From positions 141,890 to 205,889 of the forward strand of contig NZ_DS989905.1 in assembly GCF_000155595.1 (NCBI RefSeq): a stretch of DNA of 64,000 bases. Direction: 5' to 3'. Below the pieces are notes generated by a model. That model searched no databases, was not told the origin of the DNA, and saw only the letters and a list, made by a program, of their open reading frames with translations. Source of the stretch: Synechococcus sp. PCC 7335 (lineage in GTDB: Bacteria > Cyanobacteriota > Cyanobacteriia > Phormidesmidales > Phormidesmidaceae). A program made the position numbers and the translations under genes. Shown here one piece after another: positions 18,969 to 45,113 of the stretch (position 1 is its first letter; every line of letters begins with the position of its first letter).

Positions 18969-20114
18969 ACCAAATCCGCGTAGTTGACCCCCGAAATAAC
19001 GAGCGCTGAGATTATGGCCACCAGTCATAGTTGGTCAGTGCTCTAATTTCATCGGTCATCGATAGCAGCGTGACGCAGCGTTCGCAGAGAATATCTTCCA
19101 ACTCATCAATTGTGTTGAAGCTTCTGTTGACAAGCGGTTCGTCAGCGATTCGCCATAGCCGCTCGGCGGGTTGCAACTCAGGAGAGTAAGGTGGCAACAG
19201 TTCTAGATGAATGCCTTCTGGTAAGACGACTTGGTCGCTTCGGTGCCAGCCAGCCCCATCGACCACCAACAGAATCTGCTTGTCCGTGCCCGCACCTACC
19301 TGTCGTGCAAACACCTCAAGTGATTGGTTGAACCACTCAGCGTTTACTCTGGGTAAAATCAACCATTCTGTCTTGCCCGTTGACGGCTCGACAAAACCAT
19401 AGAGATACGTCCATTCGTAGCGATAGTTGACCGCTGCGACAGGGCGTTCACCAACCCGTGCCCACACCTTTCTAAGGATAGGTTTGAGCCCTAAACGAGG
19501 CTCGTCAAACGACCATACCTCGACGGTTGCATTTGGGAACTGTTGCGCTAGTTCGGTTTTACGTTCTGGCAAGTTTTTTTGAATGCCGATTGAGCTACTT
19601 TGTCTGCTTCATCATGACGTGGCCGAGGTGACTGAGAAGAGTAGCCTAACAGCTTGAGATATTCCCAACCTCGCTGTGGCCATACATGCTCGCGCCCAGT
19701 CATCGCAGCGATGATTTGCGCCACTTTTGGGCCACTCCAAACGCCACCGTCAGCTGGGGGGCCTGAAGTCGTTCGTCTAGTGCTTCACACTGCTCTATCG
19801 TCAGCACCCCTTGCATCGAATTAGGACGACTATCTTTTCGCCGATTCCTTAAACCCTCTGCACCTGCTGCGTTGTAGTTGCTTACTATCTCGCGAGCATA
19901 GTGGTAGTTGTCAGCGATCACTTCGGCGGCTGCCGTCAGCGTTTTGCCCTCACTCACCAACCAGATAAGCTGCCAGCGCCTAGCTTCAACGGGGTCAAAG
20001 CTCGCCCGATAGCGAGCTTTCAGTTCGTCAACTGAATAGTGAGATTTAATCTGAAGTTTTCTACCCATACCTTCAGATTATTATATTTAAGGGGTGATTA
20101 GTTCGGATTTGGTA
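18969..20114 (-). mobile_element. IS630-family insertion sequence, about 1.15 kb
   Basis: The element runs between two TA dinucleotides (18969-18970 and 20113-20114), the usual IS630 target. Its ends are inverted: CCAAATCCG on the left and CGGATTTGG on the right. The similarity continues weakly inward to a shared CCCC/GGGG block about 25 bp in. It carries a single transposase region on the minus strand, broken into pieces. The right end abuts a HlyD relic, so the insertion or a later deletion removed the rest of that gene. Confidence 0.75.
19012..20068 (-). pseudogene. IS630-family transposase with two -1 frame changes
   Basis: The N-terminal piece (20068 to about 19760) holds the helix-turn-helix region (TLTAAAEVIADNYHYAREIV). 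The middle piece (to about 19575) reads GPKVAQIIAAMTGREHVWPQ in another frame. The C-terminal piece (to 19012) has the DDE catalytic set: Asp in WSFDEPRLGL, Asp in VVDGAGWH and Glu in PAERLW. The first frame change lies at a run of six C (minus strand, near 19756) and the second at a run of seven A (near 19574). Both are repaired by slipping back one base. One may be a programmed frameshift; having two suggests decay or homopolymer sequencing error. Confidence 0.75.
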
Positions 20115-20115
20115 T

Positions 20116-20345
20116 AACTCGCGTTGACGAGTGTTTTCCAGGGTTTGTGCCATTTCTAGCTCGCGACGAGAAACGCCTCCCTGGCTTTCTAGCTGGGCAG
20201 TGCGATCACGATCTCTTTTGGCTTACTCCCACTGCGCTTCGGTCCTAGCTACCTCAGCCACGTCGGCCCGCTGCTCTGCCCGCGCCGATTGCAGTCTAGC
20301 CTGCGCCTGAACCAGCTCTTGCGACTTGGGTCTTTGGGTCTCTAC
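20116..20345 (-). pseudogene. relic of a HlyD/DevB-type membrane-fusion protein
   Basis: Reading the minus strand from 20345 leftwards gives a continuous coiled-coil sequence, including QAQARLQSARAEQRADVAEV and TAQLESQGGVSRRELEMAQT, interrupted by one TAA where a CAA (Gln) is expected. This is the alpha-helical hairpin of a periplasmic adaptor of the HlyD/DevB family. The sequence ends at the IS630 right end, with no continuation on the other side of the element. It is dead coding sequence and is not a copy of the intact HlyD gene at 46283. Confidence 0.65.
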
Positions 20346-20489
20346 GCCATTGATTATGAGGAAATAGCTGTGAGCAAAAAGTATCGGCCCAGCAAAACAA
20401 TCCTTGGGCTGATTAAAACAGAGAGATTGATACCGTGCTGGCGAAACTAGAAGCTCACGAAACTGGACAGAACTAAGCTTAGCCGCCTT

Positions 20490-21160
20490 CTAAGACAAGT
20501 TCTGTAACTGTCTTAGCGGTGCCTGATAGGTCCTTAGAAACTGCGTAATCGTTTTGAGTGCCTGACTAATGCCTGTTTTTGCCGTAGAAGAAAGTTCCTT
20601 TGCAAACCCAAAATCTTCTGTTGGCACTTTCAGTAGCCAGCTTTGAGGGCAGGCGTTGTACAACTGCTGAGTCAGCTTTAGCAAGGTATGGGGACTACAC
20701 GAATTCGCTTCAATCTGCATCGCTTCTGAGCGTGGATTTCTCGCAATAATAGGGGAAATCTGTACGGTGCAGGCGCGATTACCCTGGTTGAAAGACTTAG
20801 CGCAAGGTTCAACAAAGATAACATAGTCAGCCTTGGCTAACGCTATAAAAAGGGCTGGCGTTAGCCGGGCGTTAGCCGATTGATTGCGACTGCCTTGACT
20901 GACTCTAACTGCCAGTCCGATATAGCCTTCGCTACCATCGGGCCAACAGCAGCGTCCCCCTGCAATTCATTGCCACGACAAACAATTAGAAACTGATCTT
21001 GGCATTGACTCGGCTGCCGTCGGGGAATCGGCTGAGCAACCCGTCGCGAGAACTCTTTAGGAATATCTCGAAGAGTTTCTTTAGGAATTTCTCTGGAAAC
21101 TTCTCTGGAAACTTCTCTGGGAGTTGCTGTGGGAATCGTAGTGGTATAAGTCATGGCCAA
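20490..21160 (-). pseudogene. hydrogenase maturation protease (HoxW-like), frameshifted
   Basis: The first part (21160-20861) has a repetitive ~50-residue N-terminal extension (REVSREVSREIPKE), then the protease core FLIVCRGNELQGDAAVG. The frame breaks at an 11-bp tandem duplication (20857-20878). Removing one copy restores RLTPALFIALAKADYVIFVE and runs on into the C-terminal part (20720-20490), which carries CSPHTLLKLTQQLY and AKELSSTAKTGISQAL. Proteases of this family clip the large subunit of [NiFe] hydrogenase after nickel insertion. Nickel-ligand positions look altered: the usual GDD/GDE reads GDA, and the central Asp region reads VEPC. The gene lies about 7 kb from hoxEF. Both the frameshift and the missing ligands point to loss of function. 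Confidence 0.65.
20857..20878. repeat. 11-bp perfect tandem duplication
   Basis: The unit GGCGTTAGCCG occurs twice with no spacer, inside the hydrogenase-protease relic. The extra 11 bp shift its reading frame. Confidence 0.9.
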
Positions 21161-21249
21161 TTTACGATAGTTGCTTTTCTAGAGCATAAGCAGTGAATAT
21201 GAAGATACCGTGAGGCAGAGGGGCCGATCAGACAGCAGTTAGGCCCAAC

Positions 21250-21273
21250 CTCACAAATCAGCTCACAAATCAG
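21250..21273. repeat. 12-bp perfect tandem duplication
   Basis: The unit CTCACAAATCAG occurs twice with no spacer, in the 322-bp space (21161-21482) between the protease relic and the beta-barrel gene. Apart from this and the repeat at 21364, I see nothing else in that space. Confidence 0.9.
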
Positions 21274-21363
21274 AAAGCCCTCTGCATAGCATTGAACTCT
21301 CTTTCCTTTGCAAAGACTCCTCCCCAGATGCAATCGAGGAGGAGATTTTAGCGTAGCTATCAA

Positions 21364-21391
21364 AAAAAGTAGTCGATAAAAAGTAGTCGAT
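21364..21391. repeat. 14-bp perfect tandem duplication
   Basis: The unit AAAAAGTAGTCGAT occurs twice back to back, downstream of the outer-membrane protein gene (minus strand). Confidence 0.9.
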
Positions 21392-21482
21392 AGGCTGCTC
21401 TTAGATTCGACGACTAGAGCGCGACAGCCGGCTCTCGTGAAGCTTGTTCAAGCACTTGGATTCTCACACAGGTTAGATGGGC

Positions 21483-21974
21483 TTAGTAGCTACCACCAAA
21501 GGTGTAGCCGACCCCCAAGCTGAAGTCAACTTCGTCGCCATCGGCAAACGGAAGATAGTTGACAGCGCCGTTAGCAACCCAGCGGTTGGCGAATCGGTAG
21601 TCTACTCCACCTGTAATCGCAAAGTCGATTGTGCTGTCGTCGCCCAGATCGCCACCGAGGCCTGCCCCTACGAAGGGATAGACCCTGCCACCGCCATCTA
21701 CAGCATTGAGGTCGTAGGTGATGGGCAAGAGATAAGACACATCTTCACTATCGTCAAAGTCAAAGTCGGTAGCAACCGATGGCCTAATAGAGAAATTGTC
21801 ACCGAGGGTAATCTTGCTATTGATGACAAAACCGTCATCGCCACCCCCGAGCCCTACATAGCTGTAGTCGGGAAGCTGCTGTGCAAAGGCGCTCAGCGGC
21901 AGTGCTGCTAGTGCGGCAGTTGCTAGGCAGACGCCCGAAAAACGAGCAGAAGCTAGAGAAGTAGTACGTTTCAT
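21483..21974 (-). CDS. small outer-membrane beta-barrel protein
   Basis: The protein is about 163 residues from the ATG at 21974, which I prefer over the upstream one because AGGAGG lies eight bases before it. A signal peptide ends near AFAQQLPDYS. The mature part alternates hydrophobic and polar residues in about eight strands rich in Gly and Asp (YVGLGGGDDGFVINSKITLG, YPFVGAGLGGDLGD) and ends with an aromatic-containing strand, GVGYTFGGSY, as in OmpA/OmpW-type barrels. It probably sits in the outer membrane as a small porin or structural protein. The gene is divergent from ppsA. Confidence 0.7.
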   Translation of the reverse strand: MKRTTSLASARFSGVCLATAALAALPLSAFAQQLPDYSYVGLGGGDDGFVINSKITLGDNFSIRPSVATDFDFDDSEDVSYLLPITYDLNAVDGGGRVYPFVGAGLGGDLGDDSTIDFAITGGVDYRFANRWVANGAVNYLPFADGDEVDFSLGVGYTFGGSY

Positions 21975-22026
21975 GATGTAACCTCCTAACGCAGTACGAA
22001 CAAGGAGCACAGGTCGAAATTCTTTT

Positions 22027-22054
22027 GTTTGAGTCTCTTTGTTTGAGTCTCTTT
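22027..22054. repeat. 14-bp perfect tandem duplication
   Basis: The unit GTTTGAGTCTCTTT occurs twice, followed by a partial third copy (GTTTAAG). It lies in the promoter space (22011-22421) shared by the beta-barrel gene and ppsA. Confidence 0.9.
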
Positions 22055-22234
22055 GTTTAAGATTGATTCGAGCGAGTGGTTCTCTCCTTATCGCTTGTCT
22101 TTATTGTAGTTTCTTAGCTCAGACCGATTGCGATATCACAGGCCATTTCACCAGCTATCCCCCTCACAAATTTCTCATGCTTTTTCGATAGGCTAACAAT
22201 AGAGCATGACAAGAAATTTCCCCTTAAAGAATAT

Positions 22235-22262
22235 AGATAAAAAGAAACAGATAAAAAGAAAC
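22235..22262. repeat. 14-bp perfect tandem duplication
   Basis: The unit AGATAAAAAGAAAC occurs twice with no spacer. It lies in the same divergent promoter space, about 160 bp upstream of the ppsA start. Confidence 0.9.
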
Positions 22263-22341
22263 AAAGTTGAGAAAGTGTGCCAAAACTGACGGCTTCTCCA
22301 AACGACGAGTTGAGAAATTGAACCCTCATGACTTCCCCAAA

Positions 22342-22421: not shown

Positions 22422-24911
<2,490 letters not shown>

Positions 24912-27807: not shown

Positions 27808-29424
27808 CTACATCAGGGCCAGATATTCTCCTCTAAAGTATTGCAAAGTACTAATCACCGGATTAGGCGCAGCCTGACCTAATCCGCACAGGCTGGTATG
27901 TTTCACCATATCGCAAAGCTGTTCTAGCTGGGTCAAATCAGCGCTATTTGCCTGCCCTTGTGTGAACTTGCACAGTAGCTGATAGAGCTGCACCGTACCC
28001 GCCCGGCAGGGAATGCACTTGCCGCAAGACTCCTCCATGCAGAACTCCATAAAATAGCGAGCCACATCGACCATGCTGGTCTGATCGTCCATTACAATCA
28101 ACCCACCCGAACCCATAATCGACCCTAGCTGCTTGAGCGATTCGTAATCGACAGAAGTTTCAAAAGCCGAGGCTGGAATGCAGCCGCCCGAGGGACCGCC
28201 CGTTTGCACTGCCTTGACACTGCGACCCGCCGCTGCTCCCCCGCCAATGTCGTCAACAATTGCTTGCAAAGAGATCCCCATCGGCACTTCAATCAGCCCG
28301 GCATTTTGAACTTTTCCGGTGAGCGAAAAGACTTTGGTGCCCTTGCTTTTCCCAGTGCCAATACCCGCAAACCAGTCCGCTCCATTCCGAATGATGGGCG
28401 CAATGTTAGCGTAGGTTTCCACATTGTTGATTAAAGTCGGGCGGCCCCACAGCCCCGACTCGGCTGGATAGGGCGGACGCTGTTCTGGAATGCCGCGTCT
28501 GCCTTCGATAGAGGCCATGAGCGCGGTTTCTTCTCCGCAGACGAAGGCGCCTGCCCCAATCCGCAGATCAATTCGAAAATCGAGCGGAGAATCAAAGATT
28601 TGGCTGCCAAGCAATCCGTGCTTTCGGGCCTGTTGGATTGCCGTTTGCAAGTGGTTAATCGCCAGCGGATACTCACCTCGCACGTAGATATAGCCTTGGG
28701 TAGCGCCGACTGCGTAGGCCGCGATCGCCATGCCTTCTAACACCCGATGCGGATCGCTCTCTAACACGCTACGATCCATGTAGGCACCTGGATCGCCCTC
28801 GTCGGCATTGCACACCACATACTTTTGACCCGGCGGCATTTTTGCCACTGTCTCCCACTTCAGCCCGGTAGGATAGCCCGCCCCACCCCGCCCTCTCAGT
28901 CCGCTCTGGGCGATCGCTTTAGTCACTTCATCAGGCGAATACTCTCGCAGCACCCGGTACAGCGCCGCATAGCCTTGAAGGGCGACGTAGTCTTCTATTT
29001 TTTCAGGATCGACCTTGCCACTGTTCTCTAGAACGATGTGCTGCTGCTGCGTGAAAAAAGGGTGCTGGTCGGGCTGAAAGTCGGAGGGGCGAATGCGTGG
29101 TTCAGATAGATCATCAGACCAGCTGCTATCAGTAGCCATCTGGACGAGCTGTGTGGCTTGCTCAGGTGTGACCTGCTCGTACAGCCTGCCGTCTGGATCA
29201 ATTTGCACTAAAGGGCCTTTGCTGCACAGTCCCAGACAGCCGACGCCCTTCACCTTCACTTGCTCGGCTAAGTGATGGTCAGCAACCGCTGTTTGCAGCG
29301 CTGTTTTGACCGCTAAGCCATTAGCTGACAAGCATCCACCCACCGTGCAGCAGCGGATGCGACAGGGCGTTTTGGGCTGGGCTAATGTCTGTTGTAAATT
29401 ACTCAAATTCATGGGCAGATTCAT
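27808..29424 (-). CDS. hoxF: bidirectional [NiFe] hydrogenase diaphorase subunit HoxF
   Basis: This 538-residue NuoF-like flavoprotein is close to cyanobacterial HoxF in length. Residues ~15-90 are a thioredoxin-like [2Fe-2S] domain ([11 protein letters not shown], then [12 protein letters not shown]). The FMN/NADH region has [13 protein letters not shown] and [20 protein letters not shown]. The C-terminal [4Fe-4S] site shows [13 protein letters not shown] with a final Cys in SLCGLGQ. HoxF oxidises or reduces NAD(P)H and passes electrons to HoxU and the hydrogenase, or possibly to another partner. It overlaps hoxE by 26 bp. No hoxU, hoxY or hoxH follows; the next gene is unrelated, so the catalytic half must lie elsewhere or be absent. 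Confidence 0.92.
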
Positions 29425-29977
29425 GAGCTGGTTTGTCCTGTAAGCTGGCGTCTATTCGCTGAATAATAGTCTCAGTCGTTTGATGGCCCGCGATCGCATC
29501 ATCTACCACCACTACTGGCGCAATTCCACAGGCCCCTAAACAGCGAGCTGTCGAAAGCGACATCTCTCCATCTGCCGTTGTCTGTCCGGGCTGGATGCCC
29601 AAACGCTGTTCTAACTTAGCCAGTAGCTGCGCTGCCCCCTTGACATAGCAGGCCGTACCCAGGCAGACCGTACAGCTATGATGGCCGCTCGGGGCCAAGG
29701 AGAAAAAGTGATAAAAGGTGGCAACGCCGTACACTTGGCTGAGCGGCAACTGCAGAGACTTTGCGACTTCGGCCAACAGCGTCGGACTAAGATAGTCAAA
29801 CAGCTCCTGCGCCTTGTGCAAAACTTCGATGAGCGCATCTGAGCGATACTGATGGCGCTTCATCGTCGCTGCCAACAGCTGCCATCGTTTGTCTTCTAAA
29901 TCTCCCTCTACCGAATGGCCCTGTACAGGTGTCGATTCAGTCGATGTGGGTTGTGTGGATGCTGGGGAGGTGGGCAT
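29399..29977 (-). CDS. hoxE: bidirectional [NiFe] hydrogenase subunit HoxE
   Basis: A 192-residue NuoE-like protein with a thioredoxin-type [2Fe-2S] domain: [14 protein letters not shown] at mid-length and [13 protein letters not shown] later supply the four cysteines. The N-terminal ~35 residues are polar and Ser/Thr/Pro-rich. HoxE bridges the diaphorase module to ferredoxin or the membrane in cyanobacteria. It is the first gene of the hoxEF pair. The upstream space (29978-30208) is shared with the divergent CBS-CP12 gene, hinting at common control under dark or low-oxygen conditions. Confidence 0.92.
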
Positions 29978-35739: not shown

Positions 35740-38382
35740 ATGACTCTTTCAGTACGGTTTAATTTAGTCTCCCTCGATGGCAGCAACGGCTTCGTGCTCA
35801 ATGGCATCGATGAATTTGACAGCTTTGGGAGTTCGGTGAGTAGCGCAGGCGATGTGAATGGCGATGGTCTTGATGACCTTATCATTGGCACCCCTGACGG
35901 CGACCCCAACGGCAGTTCTTCGGGCGAGAGCTATGTAGTGTTTGGCTCAGACGTGGGCTTTGATGACGCTTTTGAGCTTTCTAGCTTGGATGGCAGCAAC
36001 GGCTTCGTACTTACTGGTATCAATGAAGGTGACCGCTCAGGCTTTTCGGTGAGCGGCGCAGGCGATGTGAATGGTGATGGCATCGATGATCTCATCATTG
36101 GTGCAGCTAATGCTAACGAGAGCTATGTGGTGTTTGGTTCTGATGTAGGCTTTGGCCCTACCCTCGAGCTTTCTAGTTTAGATGGCAGCAACGGCTTCGT
36201 ACTTACTGGCATTAATGAGTTCGACAGTTCCGGACGTTCGGTGAGCGGTGCGGGTGATGTCAACGGCGATGGCTTCGATGACCTTGTCATCGGCGCACCT
36301 GGCTCTGACCCTAACGGTAGTGGCTCAGGCGAAAGCTATGTAGTGTTTGGTTCTGATATGAGCGTTGATCCTACTTTCAACTTGTCTAACTTAGACGGTA
36401 GCAACGGCTTTGCGCTCAATGGCATCAATACATTTGACAGCTCTGGACGTTCGGTGAGCGGTGCGGGTGACGTCAACGGCGATGGCTTCGATGACCTTAT
36501 CATCGGCGCACCTGGATCTGACCCTAACGGTAGCGGTTCAGGCGAGAGCTATGTGGTGTTTGGTTCTGATGTAGGCTTTGGCGCTACCCTCGAGCTTTCG
36601 AGCTTGGATGGTAGCAACGGTTTCGTGATTAGTGGTATTGATGCAGGTGATGTCTCTGGTTATTCAGTAAGCGGCGCGGGTGATCTCAACGGCGATGGCT
36701 TCGATGACCTTATCATCGGCGCACCTGGGGAACGTTTTAGGGGGGATACTTCCGGCCAGAGCTATGTAGTGTTTGGCACCGATGCAGGCTTTAGCGCTAC
36801 CCTCAACTCCTCTATGTTGGATGGTAGTAACGGCTTCGTAATTAATGATATCGATGTAGGCGATCGCCTCGGTGATTCGGTGAGTAGCGCGGGCGATATC
36901 AACAGCGATGGCTTCGATGACCTCATCATCGGCGCGCGCCGAGCCGACCCCAACGGTGACGTCTCCGGTGAGAGCTATCTAGTGTTTGGTTCTGATGTAG
37001 GCTTCGGTGCTACCCTCGAGCTTTCTATGTTAGATGAAAGTAGTGGCCTTATTTTTGAGGGCATTGATGCATTTGATAACTCCGGTAGCTCGGTGAGCGG
37101 CGCGGGCGATGTCAATGGTGATGGCATTGATGACTTAATTATTGGTGCATCCAACAAGAGCTATGTGGTGTTTGGCGCTGCTGATATTAAGCCACCCACA
37201 CGTACGCTCTTCGGCACTAATGGCAACGATACGCTTGTCGGGGGCAGGAAAGGAGATATCTTCTTCGGCTTAGCGGGTAACGACTTTCTCTTCGGCGGTA
37301 TCAACAACGACGTGCTAGCTGGAGGCCGGGGGAACGACATTCTCGATGGTGGTCGGGATAAAGACTCGCTTGACGGCGGTGATGGCAACGACATTCTCTT
37401 CGGCGGTGACGGCAAAGACACTCTGACCGGGGGTAGAGGTAACGATACGCTCAACGGCGGTCGGGGCGACGATACGCTTGACGGCGGTCGGGGTCAAGAT
37501 GCTCTCTTCGGCGGTAATGGTAACGACATCCTGATTGGGGGAGCAGATAACGATACGCTTGACGGCGGTGATGGTAACGATACGCTCAAAGGCGGTCGGG
37601 GCAACGATACGCTTGACGGCCGTATAGGCCAAGACGCTCTCTTCGGCAGTAATGGTAACGACATCCTCTTTGGTAGGGGTGGTAACGATACGCTAGATGG
37701 TGGGAATGGCAACGATACGCTAGACGGCGGTGATAGCAATGACCTTCTGAATGGTGGCAAAGGCAGCGATACGCTAGACGGCGGTAACGGCAACGATACG
37801 CTGGACGGTGGCCGGGGCCAAGACGCTCTCTTCGGCGGTAGTGGTGACGACGTCCTGGTTGGGGGAGCAGACAGCGATACGCTAGATGGTGGGAATGGCA
37901 ACGATACGCTAGACGGCGGTGATGGCAACGATACACTGGACGGTGGTCGAGGCAGAAATGCTCTCTTCGGCGGTGATGGTAACGACACCCTCTTTGGCGG
38001 GGTTGACAACGATACGTTAAACGGCGGTGATGGCAACGATACGTTAGACGGCGGTCGGGGCAGCGACATCCTCACGGGCGGTAACGGTAGAGACGTGCTT
38101 CTAGGCGGCGATGGCGACGACACCCTCATCGGTGAGGGCAACAACGATACGCTTACCGGCGGTAACGGTAGAGACACGTTTGTCTTATCAGTTGGTGACG
38201 GCGTTGATACCATCACCGACTTTGACACGAAAGACTTGATTGGCCTAGCCGGCGGACTAGGTATTGGCGACCTCTCCTTTGTCGGCAACGACATTATTGC
38301 TACTGATACCAACGAAGTGCTAGCGACCCTTACTGGCATTGATACGAATAGTTTGAACAACAGTCAGTTCGTACTGGTCTGA
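35740..38382 (+). CDS. FG-GAP seven-blade propeller / RTX Ca2+-binding protein 1
   Basis: This 880-residue acidic protein lacks a classical signal peptide. Residues ~1-485 contain seven repeats of about 65-70 residues, each with [12 protein letters not shown], [20 protein letters not shown] and ESYVVFG. These are FG-GAP blades with Ca2+-binding DxNxDGxDD loops, and seven is the number in integrin-alpha propellers. Residues ~487-805 carry some 30 RTX nonapeptides of the type GGxGNDTLD that bind Ca2+ after export. The C-terminal ~70 residues ([20 protein letters not shown] onward) are the usual RTX cap with a type I secretion signal. It is probably a secreted or surface Ca2+-dependent adhesin. 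No type I exporter is present in the window. Confidence 0.88.
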   Translation: MTLSVRFNLVSLDGSNGFVLNGIDEFDSFGSSVSSAGDVNGDGLDDLIIGTPDGDPNGSSSGESYVVFGSDVGFDDAFELSSLDGSNGFVLTGINEGDRSGFSVSGAGDVNGDGIDDLIIGAANANESYVVFGSDVGFGPTLELSSLDGSNGFVLTGINEFDSSGRSVSGAGDVNGDGFDDLVIGAPGSDPNGSGSGESYVVFGSDMSVDPTFNLSNLDGSNGFALNGINTFDSSGRSVSGAGDVNGDGFDDLIIGAPGSDPNGSGSGESYVVFGSDVGFGATLELSSLDGSNGFVISGIDAGDVSGYSVSGAGDLNGDGFDDLIIGAPGERFRGDTSGQSYVVFGTDAGFSATLNSSMLDGSNGFVINDIDVGDRLGDSVSSAGDINSDGFDDLIIGARRADPNGDVSGESYLVFGSDVGFGATLELSMLDESSGLIFEGIDAFDNSGSSVSGAGDVNGDGIDDLIIGASNKSYVVFGAADIKPPTRTLFGTNGNDTLVGGRKGDIFFGLAGNDFLFGGINNDVLAGGRGNDILDGGRDKDSLDGGDGNDILFGGDGKDTLTGGRGNDTLNGGRGDDTLDGGRGQDALFGGNGNDILIGGADNDTLDGGDGNDTLKGGRGNDTLDGRIGQDALFGSNGNDILFGRGGNDTLDGGNGNDTLDGGDSNDLLNGGKGSDTLDGGNGNDTLDGGRGQDALFGGSGDDVLVGGADSDTLDGGNGNDTLDGGDGNDTLDGGRGRNALFGGDGNDTLFGGVDNDTLNGGDGNDTLDGGRGSDILTGGNGRDVLLGGDGDDTLIGEGNNDTLTGGNGRDTFVLSVGDGVDTITDFDTKDLIGLAGGLGIGDLSFVGNDIIATDTNEVLATLTGIDTNSLNNSQFVLV

Positions 38383-38427
38383 GCACCTTTAGCCTAGGCT
38401 CAGGCCCACTCGAATATCTTGAATATG

Positions 38428-38484
38428 GAAAAACGGCCTGCGTCAATAGGCCGCTGTAGTTGTAAACAAAAGGATGATAGCAAA
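38428..38484 (+). repeat. RTX leader repeat, copy 2
   Basis: Copy of the leader at 35683. Its hairpin (CGGCCT at 38434-38439, AGGCCG at 38448-38453) is fully Watson-Crick paired. The 31-nt distance to the ATG and the Shine-Dalgarno block match copy 1. Confidence 0.85.
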
Positions 38485-40701
38485 ATGGCTTTTCCAGCAC
38501 AGTTTGATTTAAGCTCTCTCTATGGTGGTAACGGCTTTGTACTCAACGGGATCGATGGAGGCGATCGCTCTGGTCTTTCAGTGAGTGATGCCGGTGACAT
38601 CAATGGTGATGGCTTCGATGACCTGATTATTAGTGCACCCAATGCTGACCCTGATAGTCGTTCCTCGGGCGAGAGCTATGTCGTGTTTGGTACCAATGCC
38701 GGCTTTGGTGCTGCTATAGATCTATCAGGTTTAAATGGTAGTAACGGTTTTGTACTCAATGGCGTTGACGAATTTGACTCTTCCGGTCGTTCGGTAAGCA
38801 GCGCGGGTGACGTCAACGGCGATGGTTTTGATGATCTAATTATTGGTGCGCCTTACGCCGATCCTAGCGGCGATGGTTCAGGTGAGAGCTATGTCGTGTT
38901 TGGTACCGACGTGGGCTTTGATGCTGTTCTAGATCTATCAGATCTAGACGGTAGTAACGGTTTTGTGCTCAGCGGCATTGATGCAGGTGACCATTCCGGT
39001 CGATCGGTAAGCAGCGCGGGCGACGTCAACGGCGATGGTTTTGATGATCTAATTATTGGTGCGCCTTACGCCGATCCTAACGGCGATGATTCAGGTGAGA
39101 GTTATGTCGTGTTTGGTACCGACGTGGGTTTTGATGCTGTCTTTGAGCTCTCTAGCTTGGATGGGAGCAATGGCTTTGTACTCAAAGGCATTGGTGGATT
39201 CTACTACTCTTCTGGATATTCGGTGAGCAACGCTGGAGATGTCAACGGCGATGGCTTCGATGATGTGATTATTGGCTCATATAACAATAACGGTGACACT
39301 TATGTCGTGTTTGGTACGGACGTGGGCTTTGATGCTGCCTTCGAGCTCTCTAGCTTGGATGGGAGCAACGGCTTCGGGTTTATTGGCAACGACTTTGACT
39401 TTTCTGGTCGTTCGGCAAGTGGTGCAGGCGACATTAACGGTGACGGCTTCGACGATGTAATTATCAACGCTCCTACCGCCATATATGGTGCCTCTTATAA
39501 CGTTTCCTACGCTGGCACTAACTACGTTGTATTTGGCAGCGATTCAGGCTTTAGTCCGCTCCTCAGACCCAATAGCTTAGATGGTAGCAACGGTTTTATC
39601 ATCGAAGGTACCAAGGTCTACAGCGAATCTGGATTTTCGGTAAGCGGAGCAGGTGATTTCAATGGCGATGGCTTCGATGACCTGATTATTGGGGCGCCCT
39701 ATACCAGTACCGGTGCTTATGTTGTCGAGAAAGGCGACGAGCCAGGCGAGAGCTATGTAGTGTTTGGTACTGATGCAGGCTTTGGCGCTGTCTTCGAACT
39801 CTCTAGCATAGATGGCAGCAACGGCTTTGTACTCACAGGTATTGATACAGACGATAGCTCCGGATTTTCGGTAAGCGGAGCAGGCGATATCAACGGTGAT
39901 GGCTTCGATGACCTAATTGTCGGTGCGCCTTACGCCGATCCTAACGGCTCTGGGTCAGGCGAAAGCTATGTGGTGTTTGGCGCTGCTGATATTGACTCAA
40001 ACACATCTACGCGCTTCGGTACTAACGGCAACGATACGCTCATCGGTGGGAAAAACAAAGACATCTTGTTCGGCCTAGCAGGGAACGACTTTCTCGATGG
40101 CAGCAACGGCGACGATACGCTCGATGGCGGTCGAGGGAGAGACACTCTCTTCGGTGGCAATGGTAACGACACCCTCATCGGTAGGGCGGATAACGATACG
40201 CTTGATGGTGGCAAAGGCAACGATACACTTGATGGTGGCAAAGGCAACGATACACTTGATGGTGGCCGGGGTAGAGATGTTCTCTTTGGTGGCAATGGTA
40301 ACGACACCCTCATCGGTAGGGCGGATAACGATACGCTTGATGGTGGCAAAGGCAACGATTTGCTAGACGGGGGGCGGGGTAACGACTTGCTTACAGGTGG
40401 TAGCGGTAGAGACTTCCTGCTCGGCAACGACGGTGACGACACCATCGTCGGTGGGGGCAACAACGATACGCTTACGGGCGGTAACGGTAGAGATACGTTC
40501 GTCCTATCGCTGGGTAACGGTATTGACACCATCACGGACTTTGACACCAAAGACCTGATTGGCCTAACGGGCGGACTCAGTCTCGGCGCACTCTCCTTTA
40601 TTGGCAGTGACATCTTGATCTCCGATACCAGCGAGGTGCTAGCCACCCTTACTGGTATCGATACGACCAGCTTGAACAGTAGCCGGTTTGTGCCGGTCTA
40701 A
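38485..40701 (+). CDS. FG-GAP seven-blade propeller / RTX Ca2+-binding protein 2
   Basis: I set the start at 38485 ([11 protein letters not shown]). The frame is open to 38419, but the shared leader places its Shine-Dalgarno block just before 38485. The 738-residue protein again has seven FG-GAP blades (residues ~1-510), some diverged, for example blade 5 with [14 protein letters not shown] shorter RTX region (~511-665) and the same C-terminal cap follow. It is a tandem paralogue of the preceding gene, 102 bp downstream. A strong hairpin terminator follows it. Confidence 0.88.
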
Positions 40702-40734
40702 GAATGTGGTGTTGAGGTTGATCGCACGACTCTA

Positions 40735-40774
40735 TTTATCAGGCGACAGCTATCTTAAGTTGTCGCCTGATAAA
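40735..40774. terminator. 14-bp perfect hairpin after RTX gene 2
   Basis: The arms TTTATCAGGCGACA and TGTCGCCTGATAAA pair perfectly around a 12-nt loop. It sits 33 bp past the stop codon, with an A/T-rich stem base, and is a likely intrinsic terminator although the U tract is short. Confidence 0.65.
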
Positions 40775-40821
40775 GCAATGCCGCCGCTGTACCATCACCC
40801 TATAGATAACTAGGAGAAAGC

Positions 40822-41125
40822 ATGGCAAATCCAGAAACCGCTACAACTGCTTTCATGCACCCTTGGACAGCACACTACGCAAAGCTCATTGCGATCGCAC
40901 TCATCTATAGCGCAATGGTTCACCTGGGCAATATTGCCGGACTTACAGGAACACCCTAGCTATCAACCCCTATGGCACTAGATAAATATCACACGCTTGA
41001 TTCTCAATGTCGTAGCAGCAACCAGTCTGTGGCGAGGGTTTTCCTTATCTATGTGGTTGTATTTAACGATGTTGTTATATTTCATTTTGTGTCGTATATC
41101 TAGTTCTGTTGCAAGAAGCTATTGA
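40822..41125 (+). pseudogene. degraded duplicate of the 133-residue membrane protein at 52018
   Basis: From the ATG at 40822 the sequence matches the gene at 52018 closely (MANPETATTAFMHPWTA, then KLIAIALIYSAMVHLGNIAG) for 45 codons. It then meets TAG where the intact copy has TGG (Trp). Similarity continues for about 165 more bases with small indels and then fades. The ~45 bp upstream also match the upstream region of the intact copy (TGCCGCC...ATCAC.CTAT...TAGGAGAA). One copy therefore lies near each end of the interval that carries RTX gene 3 and the exporter. Confidence 0.8.
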
Positions 41126-41987
41126 AGGATGAAAGGCTCCACTGTTCATTCTTGGTTGTGTAGCAACTCCGAAAATTTGGTTACGGAGATCTGTCTCATG
41201 ACATATTCTTTATCAGTATCTTGAATTTACTCCTCCCGAACTATATTCATCACCTGATAGCCTTTGATAGTCCACCGATCTGTACTGTATTAAATGAGCC
41301 CAACCCTAGGTCGGACTTGACACGACGCTTTATGACTCTATGGTCTTACTCTACCGTAATTATTCAGATACTTGCTCTGCCGAGTTTCTGTTGTTTCAGG
41401 CAGAGCTTCATCAGTTTTCAGGTGTGATCGCGCGGTCGCTGACTTGGCGGTTCGCAAGTGGATAGGCTGCTAAACCTCTTTCATAATTCAGTATGGATTT
41501 AACGACCTGATAGTGTTTGGTTGAACTTATGATTATGGTCTATCTTATTCAAACATGAAGAACAATCAGGCTTGATTTCCTCATATGATCCTCAGCCTTT
41601 TTGCCTACTTTTGAATTGTAAGCAAGACCAGAGCGCTAAGCAAAGATGCTTATGAGTCTCTCAATCAGCCTTTACACGGCCGAATCTACTGCGCCGACCA
41701 AGACAACAGAGTCCTGCTGAGCGCAGGCTAGGCTATTCCTATAAGGACAGAACCTTGATGCTTGCTGGCTCTCAAAGGATGTTGAAGAGTGTATAAGCCG
41801 CTGCATCATACTTTTAATCTCATTGGTTGCATTTTCGACAGCATATAGCGTCGTGTGTTGTTCTTTATCTATACATAGCTCCTTCTTGGAAATGTAACTG
41901 AGATGTGCATCAGAATACGACTCTATGCTGACTGCAGCCGCATGACTGTAAATACAACGGAACTTTTGAAATTTTAGGAGAACAGAA
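41126..41987. other. long non-coding stretch upstream of RTX gene 3
   Basis: The 862 bases lack a credible gene; short frames at 41221 (+) and 41672 (-) have no coding character. No leader repeat of the type in front of RTX genes 1 and 2 is present. The start of RTX gene 3 is preceded by TTTTAGGAGAACAGAA, a normal ribosome-binding site. Confidence 0.5.
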
Positions 41988-44900
41988 ATGGATAATATCT
42001 TTACACTTCCTTCAGCCAAAAGTCTGTCCCATGATGAGCCGTCTCAAACAGAGTCTTCTGACGACGCCTGCGGCTGCGAAGTAGTAGACGGACAGACAGT
42101 GAATACAACTTGGCTAGATGGCGACGGTCCTAATGCCTTAGAAAATCTAGAGCAGCGCGGACTACTAGAAGAACCTGCTGCCTCGCGAATCAAATTACCT
42201 GAATACGACGGTTCAGGCGTATTCGACATTTACGTGGAAGCAGGTCTTCTATCAGGTATTGAAGAGGCTGTAGATACCTATGTAGATGATCTAGAAGGTG
42301 AAGGCTATCAGATTAGTGTTCAAGAATTCTCAGGAGATGCTGAAGCTCTGAAAACGAGGTTACAGTCCAGCTGGCAAGAGAAGGGACTGGAGGGAACGCT
42401 GTTTATAGGGGATCTACCCCACGTTGAGTTCACCAGCGAAGACAACTTTAATGCCTCTGGCAGGCAAGTTACCTATCCACATGATTTGTACTTTATGGAT
42501 CTTGATGGTGACTACGATCTCAACGATGTTGGACTTGATGGTCACACAGGCGAAGTCAGTCCCGAAATCTACGTTTCTCGCCTAACCACAGGCAACCTGT
42601 CGGGAATAACAGGACAGACTGAGACTGATCTGATCAACGACTACTTTGCTAGAAACCACGCCTATAGAACTGGGGAACTCACATTTAGAAATCGTGGCAT
42701 CGTCTTTGCCGATGACGATTGGAGTCATTGGGGAGCTGATAGAATGCAGGCTCTCTATGAAGAAGTCTTAGTCCTGAACAATGCTAGTGAGACGACTAAG
42801 GACAATTATCTCAATACTCTCGGTTTGAATTATGAGTCTATTTTAGAAGCTATCCACAGCTCTCCGACTAGTCATTCGCTGAAGGTGAACGATAGATGGG
42901 AGCGAATTAGTAGTCAAGAGATTGTTGAGACTAATCCTAGAGTCGGATTCTACAACTTATTCAACTGTTCCTCTGCTGACTTCACGGTTCCAAATAATTT
43001 AATCGGTGCCTATGTTTATGGCGGTGAATTTGGGTTGAATGCCATTGGCAGTACCAAAACGGGAAGCATGCTTAATTTCTTTGATTTCTATCAACCTCAG
43101 GGAGAGAATGATAGTGTTGGCCAAGCCTTTTTGCAATGGTTTGATCAATATGCGGCAAGTACCGACAACCCCAGCCAGGACTGGCGTTTGGATTGGTTTA
43201 ATGGCATGACCATGCAGGGTGACCCCACTTTGAAGCCAGCTTCGATGGGAGATGCTCCTGGTGAACTTATAGGAACAAAGTGGAATGACCTCAATGGCGA
43301 TGGCATCCGCCAAGCGGAAGAACCGGGTCTCGCGGGTTGGGTCATTTATCTTGACCAAAACCAAAACAGCCAGCTCGATGAAAATGAGGCTTCAACTGTC
43401 ACTGACTCTGACGGAAACTATCGGTTCTCAGCGCTGCTGCCTGGTACCTATACAGTGACAGAGCAACCACAGCCTGATTGGAGTCAAACCAAGCCCATTG
43501 GGTTCGACTATGATTGGTCGGATAGCGATTCAACAGAATTGCCCTTTGACTGGGTAGAGATTTCAGAGGTGGGAACTGCGCTCACGTTAGGAGACGATGA
43601 GGGTATTCAAATTGATTTGCCGTTTGAGTTTCCCTTCTACGGCGAGACGCAAAAAACCGTTAAAATTTCGTCTAATGGCTATCTCAGCTTTGGCGAGGAT
43701 GCGTTTCAATTCGACAATGAGTCGATTCCTCAACCTACCCAGCCTAACCAGATAATCGCGCCCTTCTGGGATGATTTAAACCCCACCCAGGGTGGCAACG
43801 TTTACTATCACTACGATGCGGACAATGATTGTTTCATTGTTCAATACGACGAAGTTCCTCACTACTCTGACGAAGGCGCTTATACGTTCCAAGCTATCCT
43901 TAATGCCGATGGCACTATTCTTTATCAGTACGACACTCTTACTGGTATTTTAGACAGCGCTACTGTTGGCATAGAAAATAAGGATGGAACAGATGGCGTA
44001 CAGATTGCGTTTGATCAAAGCTATCTTCATGACGATCTGGCGATCGCCCTGAATCCAGTCCCCAATAGTCCCCAGCCCTATACAGTTTCAGTAGTCTCAG
44101 GTGAGACCATTACCGACCTCGACTTCGGCAACCAGCAACGAGCCCTTAATATCATCAATGGCACCAGTGGCGACGACACGCTCTTCGGTGGCAAGCGCGA
44201 CGACATCCTATTCGGCCTAGCAGGCAACGACTTTCTCGATGGCGGTAACGGCGACGATACGCTAGACGGAGGCCGGGGTAACGACACCCTATTCGGCGGT
44301 AACGGTAACGACATCCTCATCGGGGGGGCAGACAACGATACGCTCGATGGCGGTAAGGGCAACGATACGCTAGACGGGGGTCGGGGGAATGACCTGCTCA
44401 CGGGCGGTCGGGGTAGCGACTCGCTGCTCGGGAGTGATGGCAACGACACGCTCTTTGGTGGTGGGGACAACGATACGCTAGACGGCGGTAAAGGTAACGA
44501 TACGCTCAATGGTGACAAAGGTAACGATACGCTAGACGGCGGTCGGGGTAGCGACGCTCTCTTTGGCAATGATGGTAACGACATACTCAGTGGCGGGGCA
44601 GACAACGATACGCTCGACGGCGGTAAGGGTAACGATACGCTCGACGGCGGCCGAGGGAATGACCTGCTCAACGGTGGTCGGGGCTTAGATGTGCTCTTTG
44701 GCAATGATGGCAATGACATCCTCAGCGGCGGGGCGGACAACGACACGCTCAATGGCGGCAATGGTAACGATACGCTGAACGGTGGTAAGGGTAACGATAC
44801 GCTCGATGGCGGCAAAGGTAGAGACCTCCTGCTCGGCAACGATGGCAACGACACCCTCATCGGTGGGGGCAACAACGATACGCTTACCGGCGGTAACGGT

Positions 44901-45113
44901 AGAGATACGTTTGTCCTATCGCTGGGTGACGGCTTCGATACCATCACCGACTTTGATACTAAAGACCTCATTGGTCTAGCAGGCGGGCTCAGTCTCGGCG
45001 CACTTTCCTTTGTCGGTAATGACATTTTCGTAACTGATACTAGCGAAATGCTAGCTACCCTGACTGGCATCGACACTTCTAGCTTGAACAGCAGTCAGTT
45101 CGTGCTGGTGTAG
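41988..45113 (+). CDS. gingipain-like (C25-type) peptidase / SdrD-B / RTX protein
   Basis: A multi-domain 1041-residue protein. Residues ~55-425 resemble the caspase-like fold of C25 cysteine peptidases: TLFIGDLPHVEF, then a His-containing HSSPTSHSL (about residue 293), YNLFNCSSADFT (Cys about 327), GEFGLNAIGSTKTGSM and a closing MQGDPTLKP. Residues ~426-500 are an SdrD-B-type Ca2+ domain (KWNDLNGDGIRQAEEPGLAG). Residues ~510-700 resemble a nidogen-like beta domain (KISSNGYLSF; IIAPFWDDLNP). Residues ~724-970 are RTX nonapeptides, and the last 70 residues are the shared cap. It is likely exported by a type I route and active outside the cell. Confidence 0.82.
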   Translation: MDNIFTLPSAKSLSHDEPSQTESSDDACGCEVVDGQTVNTTWLDGDGPNALENLEQRGLLEEPAASRIKLPEYDGSGVFDIYVEAGLLSGIEEAVDTYVDDLEGEGYQISVQEFSGDAEALKTRLQSSWQEKGLEGTLFIGDLPHVEFTSEDNFNASGRQVTYPHDLYFMDLDGDYDLNDVGLDGHTGEVSPEIYVSRLTTGNLSGITGQTETDLINDYFARNHAYRTGELTFRNRGIVFADDDWSHWGADRMQALYEEVLVLNNASETTKDNYLNTLGLNYESILEAIHSSPTSHSLKVNDRWERISSQEIVETNPRVGFYNLFNCSSADFTVPNNLIGAYVYGGEFGLNAIGSTKTGSMLNFFDFYQPQGENDSVGQAFLQWFDQYAASTDNPSQDWRLDWFNGMTMQGDPTLKPASMGDAPGELIGTKWNDLNGDGIRQAEEPGLAGWVIYLDQNQNSQLDENEASTVTDSDGNYRFSALLPGTYTVTEQPQPDWSQTKPIGFDYDWSDSDSTELPFDWVEISEVGTALTLGDDEGIQIDLPFEFPFYGETQKTVKISSNGYLSFGEDAFQFDNESIPQPTQPNQIIAPFWDDLNPTQGGNVYYHYDADNDCFIVQYDEVPHYSDEGAYTFQAILNADGTILYQYDTLTGILDSATVGIENKDGTDGVQIAFDQSYLHDDLAIALNPVPNSPQPYTVSVVSGETITDLDFGNQQRALNIINGTSGDDTLFGGKRDDILFGLAGNDFLDGGNGDDTLDGGRGNDTLFGGNGNDILIGGADNDTLDGGKGNDTLDGGRGNDLLTGGRGSDSLLGSDGNDTLFGGGDNDTLDGGKGNDTLNGDKGNDTLDGGRGSDALFGNDGNDILSGGADNDTLDGGKGNDTLDGGRGNDLLNGGRGLDVLFGNDGNDILSGGADNDTLNGGNGNDTLNGGKGNDTLDGGKGRDLLLGNDGNDTLIGGGNNDTLTGGNGRDTFVLSLGDGFDTITDFDTKDLIGLAGGLSLGALSFVGNDIFVTDTSEMLATLTGIDTSSLNSSQFVLV

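Follow-up and report, generated by a model that had tools for sequence, protein, structure and literature searches.

Short tandem duplications across the genome of Synechococcus sp. PCC 7335 carry a break-point signature that points to a type IA topoisomerase

The genome of Synechococcus sp. PCC 7335 contains many short tandem duplications (about 7-16 bp, up to 24 bp) that were probably written by a type IA topoisomerase; the chromosomal TopA is the likeliest candidate. We put the probability of this reading at roughly two in three. We infer the role of topoisomerase I from sequence, namely from the match between the break points and the cleavage motif of the enzyme. In vivo, E. coli topoisomerase I (TopoI) cuts at T^A, four nucleotides downstream of an obligatory C (PMC9352719), and this -4 C rule is held by topoisomerase I, not by topoisomerase III (PMC11999072). 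Moreover, the E. coli topA mutation R168C gives rise to head-to-tail duplications of 2-19 bp, which are independent of existing repeats and fall into strong hotspots (PMC6954433). At these hotspots, Bachar et al. (2020, NAR) detected no cleavage motif, and they stated the mechanism as unknown (PMC6954433). We favour an error of cleavage and rejoining by topoisomerase I because the -4 C rule and the duplications of the R168C mutant combine in this explanation.

The starting point is a cluster in the window, by which we mean the whole 64-kb stretch of DNA analysed; it lies on the 774.5-kb contig C2 of a 5.97-Mb genome, the main contig of which (C1) measures 4.72 Mb. An exhaustive scan of the window for exact tandem repeats (unit of at least 10 bp at the cluster) identified six perfect tandem duplications at 20857-22263, with units of 11, 12, 12, 14, 14 and 14 bp (Table 1). 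An earlier note on this DNA had listed five repeats of 11-14 bp; all of them are present, so that its count was one short. The repeat that it listed at 22027 exists, but the array starts at 22024 and has 2.5 copies. The repeats near 21066-21122 that it called imperfect do form a degenerate repeat, with a 24-bp unit (21048-21120, near the 5' end of the protease-like gene), but this repeat includes the perfect array at 21089-21120. Two duplications fall within the protease-like gene and two in its upstream gap, one directly upstream of the outer-membrane gene, and one between the outer-membrane and phosphoenolpyruvate (PEP) synthase genes; the gap upstream of the latter contains two of the six. 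In the rest of the window, perfect tandem repeats with a unit of at least 9 bp are limited to a 27-bp unit of RTX type and a 9-mer. A large RTX-like repeat region at 35925-44909, built of 27-bp units and 135/213-bp super-units, is unrelated to the short duplications.

Table 1. Tandem duplications of the cluster and the genes around them (window positions).
Feature	Unit	Positions	Strand	Remarks
Tandem duplication, 11 bp x 2	GGCGTTAGCCG	20857..20878		perfect; frameshifts hydrogenase-protease-like gene
Tandem duplication, 12 bp x 2.67	TTCTCTGGAAAC	21089..21120		perfect, in frame
Tandem duplication, 12 bp x 2	CTCACAAATCAG	21250..21273		perfect; upstream of protease-like gene
Tandem duplication, 14 bp x 2.07	AAAAAGTAGTCGAT	21364..21392		perfect; intergenic gap shared with 21250-21273 duplication
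Tandem duplication, 14 bp x 2.5	TTTGTTTGAGTCTC	22024..22058		perfect; directly upstream of outer-membrane gene
Tandem duplication, 14 bp x 2.07	AGATAAAAAGAAAC	22235..22263		perfect; between divergent outer-membrane and PEP synthase genes
Hydrogenase maturation protease-like gene (HoxW/HycI superfamily)		20490..21160	-	split by 11-bp duplication
Outer-membrane beta-barrel gene (PF13505)		21483..21974	-	intact; between duplication groups
Phosphoenolpyruvate synthase gene		22422..24911	+	divergent from outer-membrane gene

The claim that one duplication breaks a gene was borne out: the extra 11-bp copy shifts the frame of the protease-like gene and splits it between 20861-21160 and the frame that follows; related genes are intact. 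Relatives match the superfamily model TIGR00072 (hydrogenase maturation protease). The homologue in a sister species (G006) is intact, is 61% identical across the C-terminal part and is without the repeat-rich N-terminal stretch; the stretch encoded by the 21089-21120 array has no counterpart in it. Since an intact protease paralogue adjoins hoxH and hypA at 237 kb of contig C2 (L045:12676-13239), the split gene is a spare copy and its loss is tolerable.

Perfect tandem duplications of 10-60 bp were then counted in 2.864 Mb (48%) of the same genome. The sample contains 217 of them (0.076 per kb, or about one per 13 kb), and order-3 Markov sequence yields about 5 per 3.2 Mb. Such duplications thus abound throughout the genome, at about 50 times the chance level, and the process is genome-wide and not locally acting as previously proposed, although the density in the cluster is indeed exceptional. 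The units are unrelated to each other and of all lengths from 10 to 24 bp, which agrees with the earlier view of a mutational process instead of one repeat family. Noncoding DNA has 0.158 per kb and coding DNA 0.024 per kb (by a crude gene call), and the unit lengths of coding duplications are mostly multiples of 3. In noncoding DNA, the excess over the Markov model covers units of 7-15 bp and drops beyond 16 bp; a bigger excess is seen at 6 bp. Decayed copies are in excess as well (168 against 6, with at most one mismatch), and perfect copies make up about 18% of the chance-corrected genome-wide total with up to two mismatches.

The short tandemly repeated repetitive (STRR) sequences of filamentous cyanobacteria are a known kind of repeat that also forms short tandem arrays in cyanobacterial intergenic DNA. 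They are one family, with units in multiples of 7 bp and long overlaps, whereas the units here are unrelated, 10-16 bp long and mostly present in exactly two copies. Membership among the heptanucleotide STRR was therefore rejected, in view of the unrelated units of all lengths from 10 to 24 bp; STRR-like units of 14, 21 and 28 bp were encountered in the comparison data.

The scan for enrichment that the earlier note had suggested as a check sets the cluster apart: outside it, no 1.5-kb span of the 2.86 Mb sampled holds more than two duplications, compared with six in the cluster. When the duplications were placed at random with the coding/noncoding split kept, five within 1.41 kb arose in 7 of 2000 trials and six in none, figures that apply to 48% of the genome and to a site chosen because it looked clustered. 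General clustering was not found outside this site (21 pairs less than 1.5 kb apart, against 24.2 +/- 3.8 at random). All five cluster arrays with units of at least 12 bp are perfect, and a search next to the cluster arrays for decayed ones with up to two mismatches gave none. The cluster looks young because all its arrays are perfect, compared with about 18% genome-wide, and it has the appearance of a recent local burst rather than of an old hotspot.

The case for a topoisomerase comes from the break points, which were analysed for duplications with unambiguous ends (main set: 92 noncoding duplications). Base counts by position show a strand-symmetric pattern. In 70 of 92 duplications, compared with 35.5 expected, the left flank has a C at -4 or, which amounts to the same, the right flank has a G at +4 (p=3e-13). 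The unit end, when both strands are considered, has a C at -4 in 57 of 92 (p=5e-6). From -1 to -10, the nine remaining positions all fail to reach p<0.01. The two Cs tend to lie on the same strand: this is the case for 44 of 102 duplications against 9.6 expected, with at most 14 for every other offset. Association on the same strand is positive (odds ratios 2.7 and 2.5, p=0.02 and 0.04), whereas association on opposite strands is negative (odds ratio 0.44, p=0.05). After orientation by expectation-maximisation, which gave a fit of 220 compared with 71-102 at random sites, the left break has the consensus C(61%) T(50%) N T(58%) ^ W, with A or T at +1 in about 75%. The unit end has a weaker motif than the left break, with C (51%) at -4, avoidance of C at the next two positions, and no bias of the T^A type.

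The signature is present in both size classes and in coding duplications taken alone (same-strand Cs at -4 in 11 of 22, compared with 3-8 at other positions). Duplications of 7-9 bp include many chance matches and show it weakly (p=0.016). The strand of the motif shows no clear bias relative to the direction of transcription. The absence of the signature from 17 unambiguous duplications of other genomes counts against an artefact of detection, and we rejected that explanation on this ground and because the motif is confined to -4.

Within the cluster, only the 11-bp duplication has an unambiguous break with C at -4 at both ends, both on the - strand (CAAT^ and CGCC^). The other five have a -4 C at one end, or under some placements only. 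The duplication at 21250-21273 has a break at CTTT^ on the - strand, and one possible placement of that at 22235-22263 also gives CTTT^ on the - strand; the break position is uncertain by 1 nt at 21364-21392 and by up to 7 nt at 22024-22058. It is by their size, perfection and context that the cluster arrays are assigned to the genome-wide class; their own break points contribute little proof.

Together, the data suggest a model in which TopA would nick one strand of underwound DNA at C-N-N-T^, the 5' end staying on its tyrosine. The free 3' end could then be lengthened by 10-16 nt by a polymerase, with displacement of the strand ahead, or it could be exchanged for the 3' end of the sister strand, cut at a second site downstream. 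TopA would join the longer 3' end to the held 5' end, favouring one with a C in its -4 pocket, and the following round of replication would fix the extra copy. If one and the same pocket selects the 3' end that is accepted, this end should bear a -4 C. Extension and exchange fit the present data alike. That a topoisomerase I with wild-type residues itself performs the whole sequence, cutting, accepting a longer 3' end with a -4 C and rejoining, is in our estimate an even bet. A second type IA topoisomerase gene is found on contig C4 (G000:C4:95568-96830; 724-codon open frame), and its enzyme is a possible contributor.

In this model, the six duplications of the cluster would stem from a recent burst of such events, in DNA underwound by transcription around the promoter gaps that serve the protease-like gene and the divergent pair of outer-membrane and PEP synthase genes. 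In E. coli, Sutormin et al. (2022, PMC9352719) found TopoI to be enriched upstream of active genes, which fits the promoter position of the cluster. Genome-wide, divergent gaps have slightly more duplications than convergent ones (0.177 and 0.107 per kb); the direction of this preference agrees with the upstream enrichment of TopoI, but it is weak.

The resemblance to E. coli topA R168C lies in the de novo formation of short head-to-tail duplications, with a hotspot and without need of existing repeats. There, however, a laboratory point mutant was studied and no cleavage motif emerged, whereas here a natural genome with R168 kept shows a clear -4 C at both breaks; moreover, the hotspot here is single, without general clustering. 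The equivalents of R168, R169 and R173 are all conserved in the TopA of this strain, without any R168C-like change, and the enzyme is therefore not simply the E. coli mutant. A mutator TopA of the R168C type was rejected for this reason, but the conservation of R168 lowers the case for the same mutant, not for an enzyme that works like it. With the TopoI motif of E. coli, the break points have in common the C four nucleotides upstream and, as a tendency at the left break, the T before the cut and the AT-rich context, although cleavage complexes were mapped in that study (PMC9352719) and mutations here. Our literature search for topoisomerase-linked duplications in cyanobacteria gave nothing relevant, and a plasmid search revealed no close cyanobacterial source. 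In eukaryotes, topoisomerases 1 and 2 give rise to indels, in the form of 2-5 bp deletions and 2-4 bp duplications. As in our model, the short indel that results from a miscarried reaction bears a sequence signature; the enzymes there are of types IB and IIA, the events are shorter and the motifs are different.

Among the other explanations, a different nicking or priming activity with a similar preference, such as an HUH transposase, the C4 type IA enzyme or the start sites of primase, is the most probable, though still unlikely. The presence of the type IA gene on C4 speaks for it; bacterial topoisomerase III, however, lacks the -4 C rule, as mentioned above. The unit length of the duplications is close to that of RNA primers (about 10-12 nt), but primase would be expected to leave its motif at a single end, not at both ends on one strand.

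Replication slippage or microhomology repair, which the earlier note had proposed, would let the polymerase re-anneal at a short repeat and copy the intervening stretch twice. Slippage is what textbooks give as the cause of tandem repeats, and it can lengthen arrays of at least 2.5 copies after they have formed. As an origin of the duplications, however, it is improbable. Junction overlaps (the bases that match past the two exact copies) of 0, 1, 2, 3 and 4 nt were found in 92, 41, 16, 4 and 2 cases, compared with 87, 44, 17, 6 and 2 expected without any homology (chi-square p=0.92). Nor does slippage lead one to expect a C at exactly -4 or the pairing of Cs on the same strand with mismatching bases between them. 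Hairpin-driven duplication was rejected too, as neither units nor flanks exceed random sites in self-complementarity (mean stem 3.83, against 3.88 at random sites).

Still less probable are the scars of transposons or of staggered double-strand cuts, in which a target-site duplication stays behind after excision, or filled-in 5' overhangs are joined. The lengths of 10-16 bp do resemble long target-site duplications, and an IS630-type element is close by. IS630-type elements, however, duplicate TA only, which disfavours a scar of this kind. Both types of event predict an inverted motif at the ends, whereas pairing of the -4 Cs is below independence on opposite strands and above it on the same strand. 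In addition, a search of the genome (assembly 95% complete) gave no match to a Ku gene, which speaks against end joining as well as against the repair that the earlier note had in mind.

An artefact of assembly or sequencing, to which a single assembly and a very local cluster might point, is hardly credible, since assembly would not yield a -4 C signature, decayed copies are found genome-wide, relatives' assemblies have similar arrays, and coding duplications favour multiples of 3, so that selection must have acted on real DNA.

The signature bears on the question of how tandem repeats first arise from non-repeated DNA. Same-strand Cs at -4 of both breaks tie the duplications to the chemistry of type IA topoisomerases in a natural genome, and they separate them from slippage, microhomology repair and transposon scars. 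If our reading is correct, this is a natural, readable and previously undescribed mutational signature and a general source of new tandem repeats, which suggests that a housekeeping enzyme can make new repeats in nature. The signature can be searched for in any genome or mutation-accumulation data set.

The load of duplications differs between replicons (0.092 per kb on C1, 0.043 per kb on C2, and two in 120 kb on C3-C5). Short loci from relatives in the genus (e.g., L003, L253, L259 and L281) have 13 perfect arrays in about 31 kb, many of them multi-copy and too few of them unambiguous for a test of the signature; several are in-frame expansions with at least three copies. Other genera of the family have fewer, with 8 arrays in 151 kb. 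An archaeal locus of 22 kb (L212, Methanosarcina sp. DH2) contains eight short tandem duplications and may represent a second high-load lineage.

Some further observations concern the genes of the window. The IS630-type element (19012-20068, - strand) is split between two ORFs, a DDE_3 part and a helix-turn-helix part, and adjoins a fragment with an internal stop (20095-20400) that resembles a membrane-fusion (HlyD/DevB-like) protein. A second PEP synthase-like gene on contig C1 (G000:C1:3659657-3660093, L097) matches the start of the window copy with 73% DNA identity across 437 bp. NuoE- and NuoF-like ORFs of the HoxE/HoxF type are located at 27808-29977 (- strand), about 68 kb from hoxH and hypA on the same contig.
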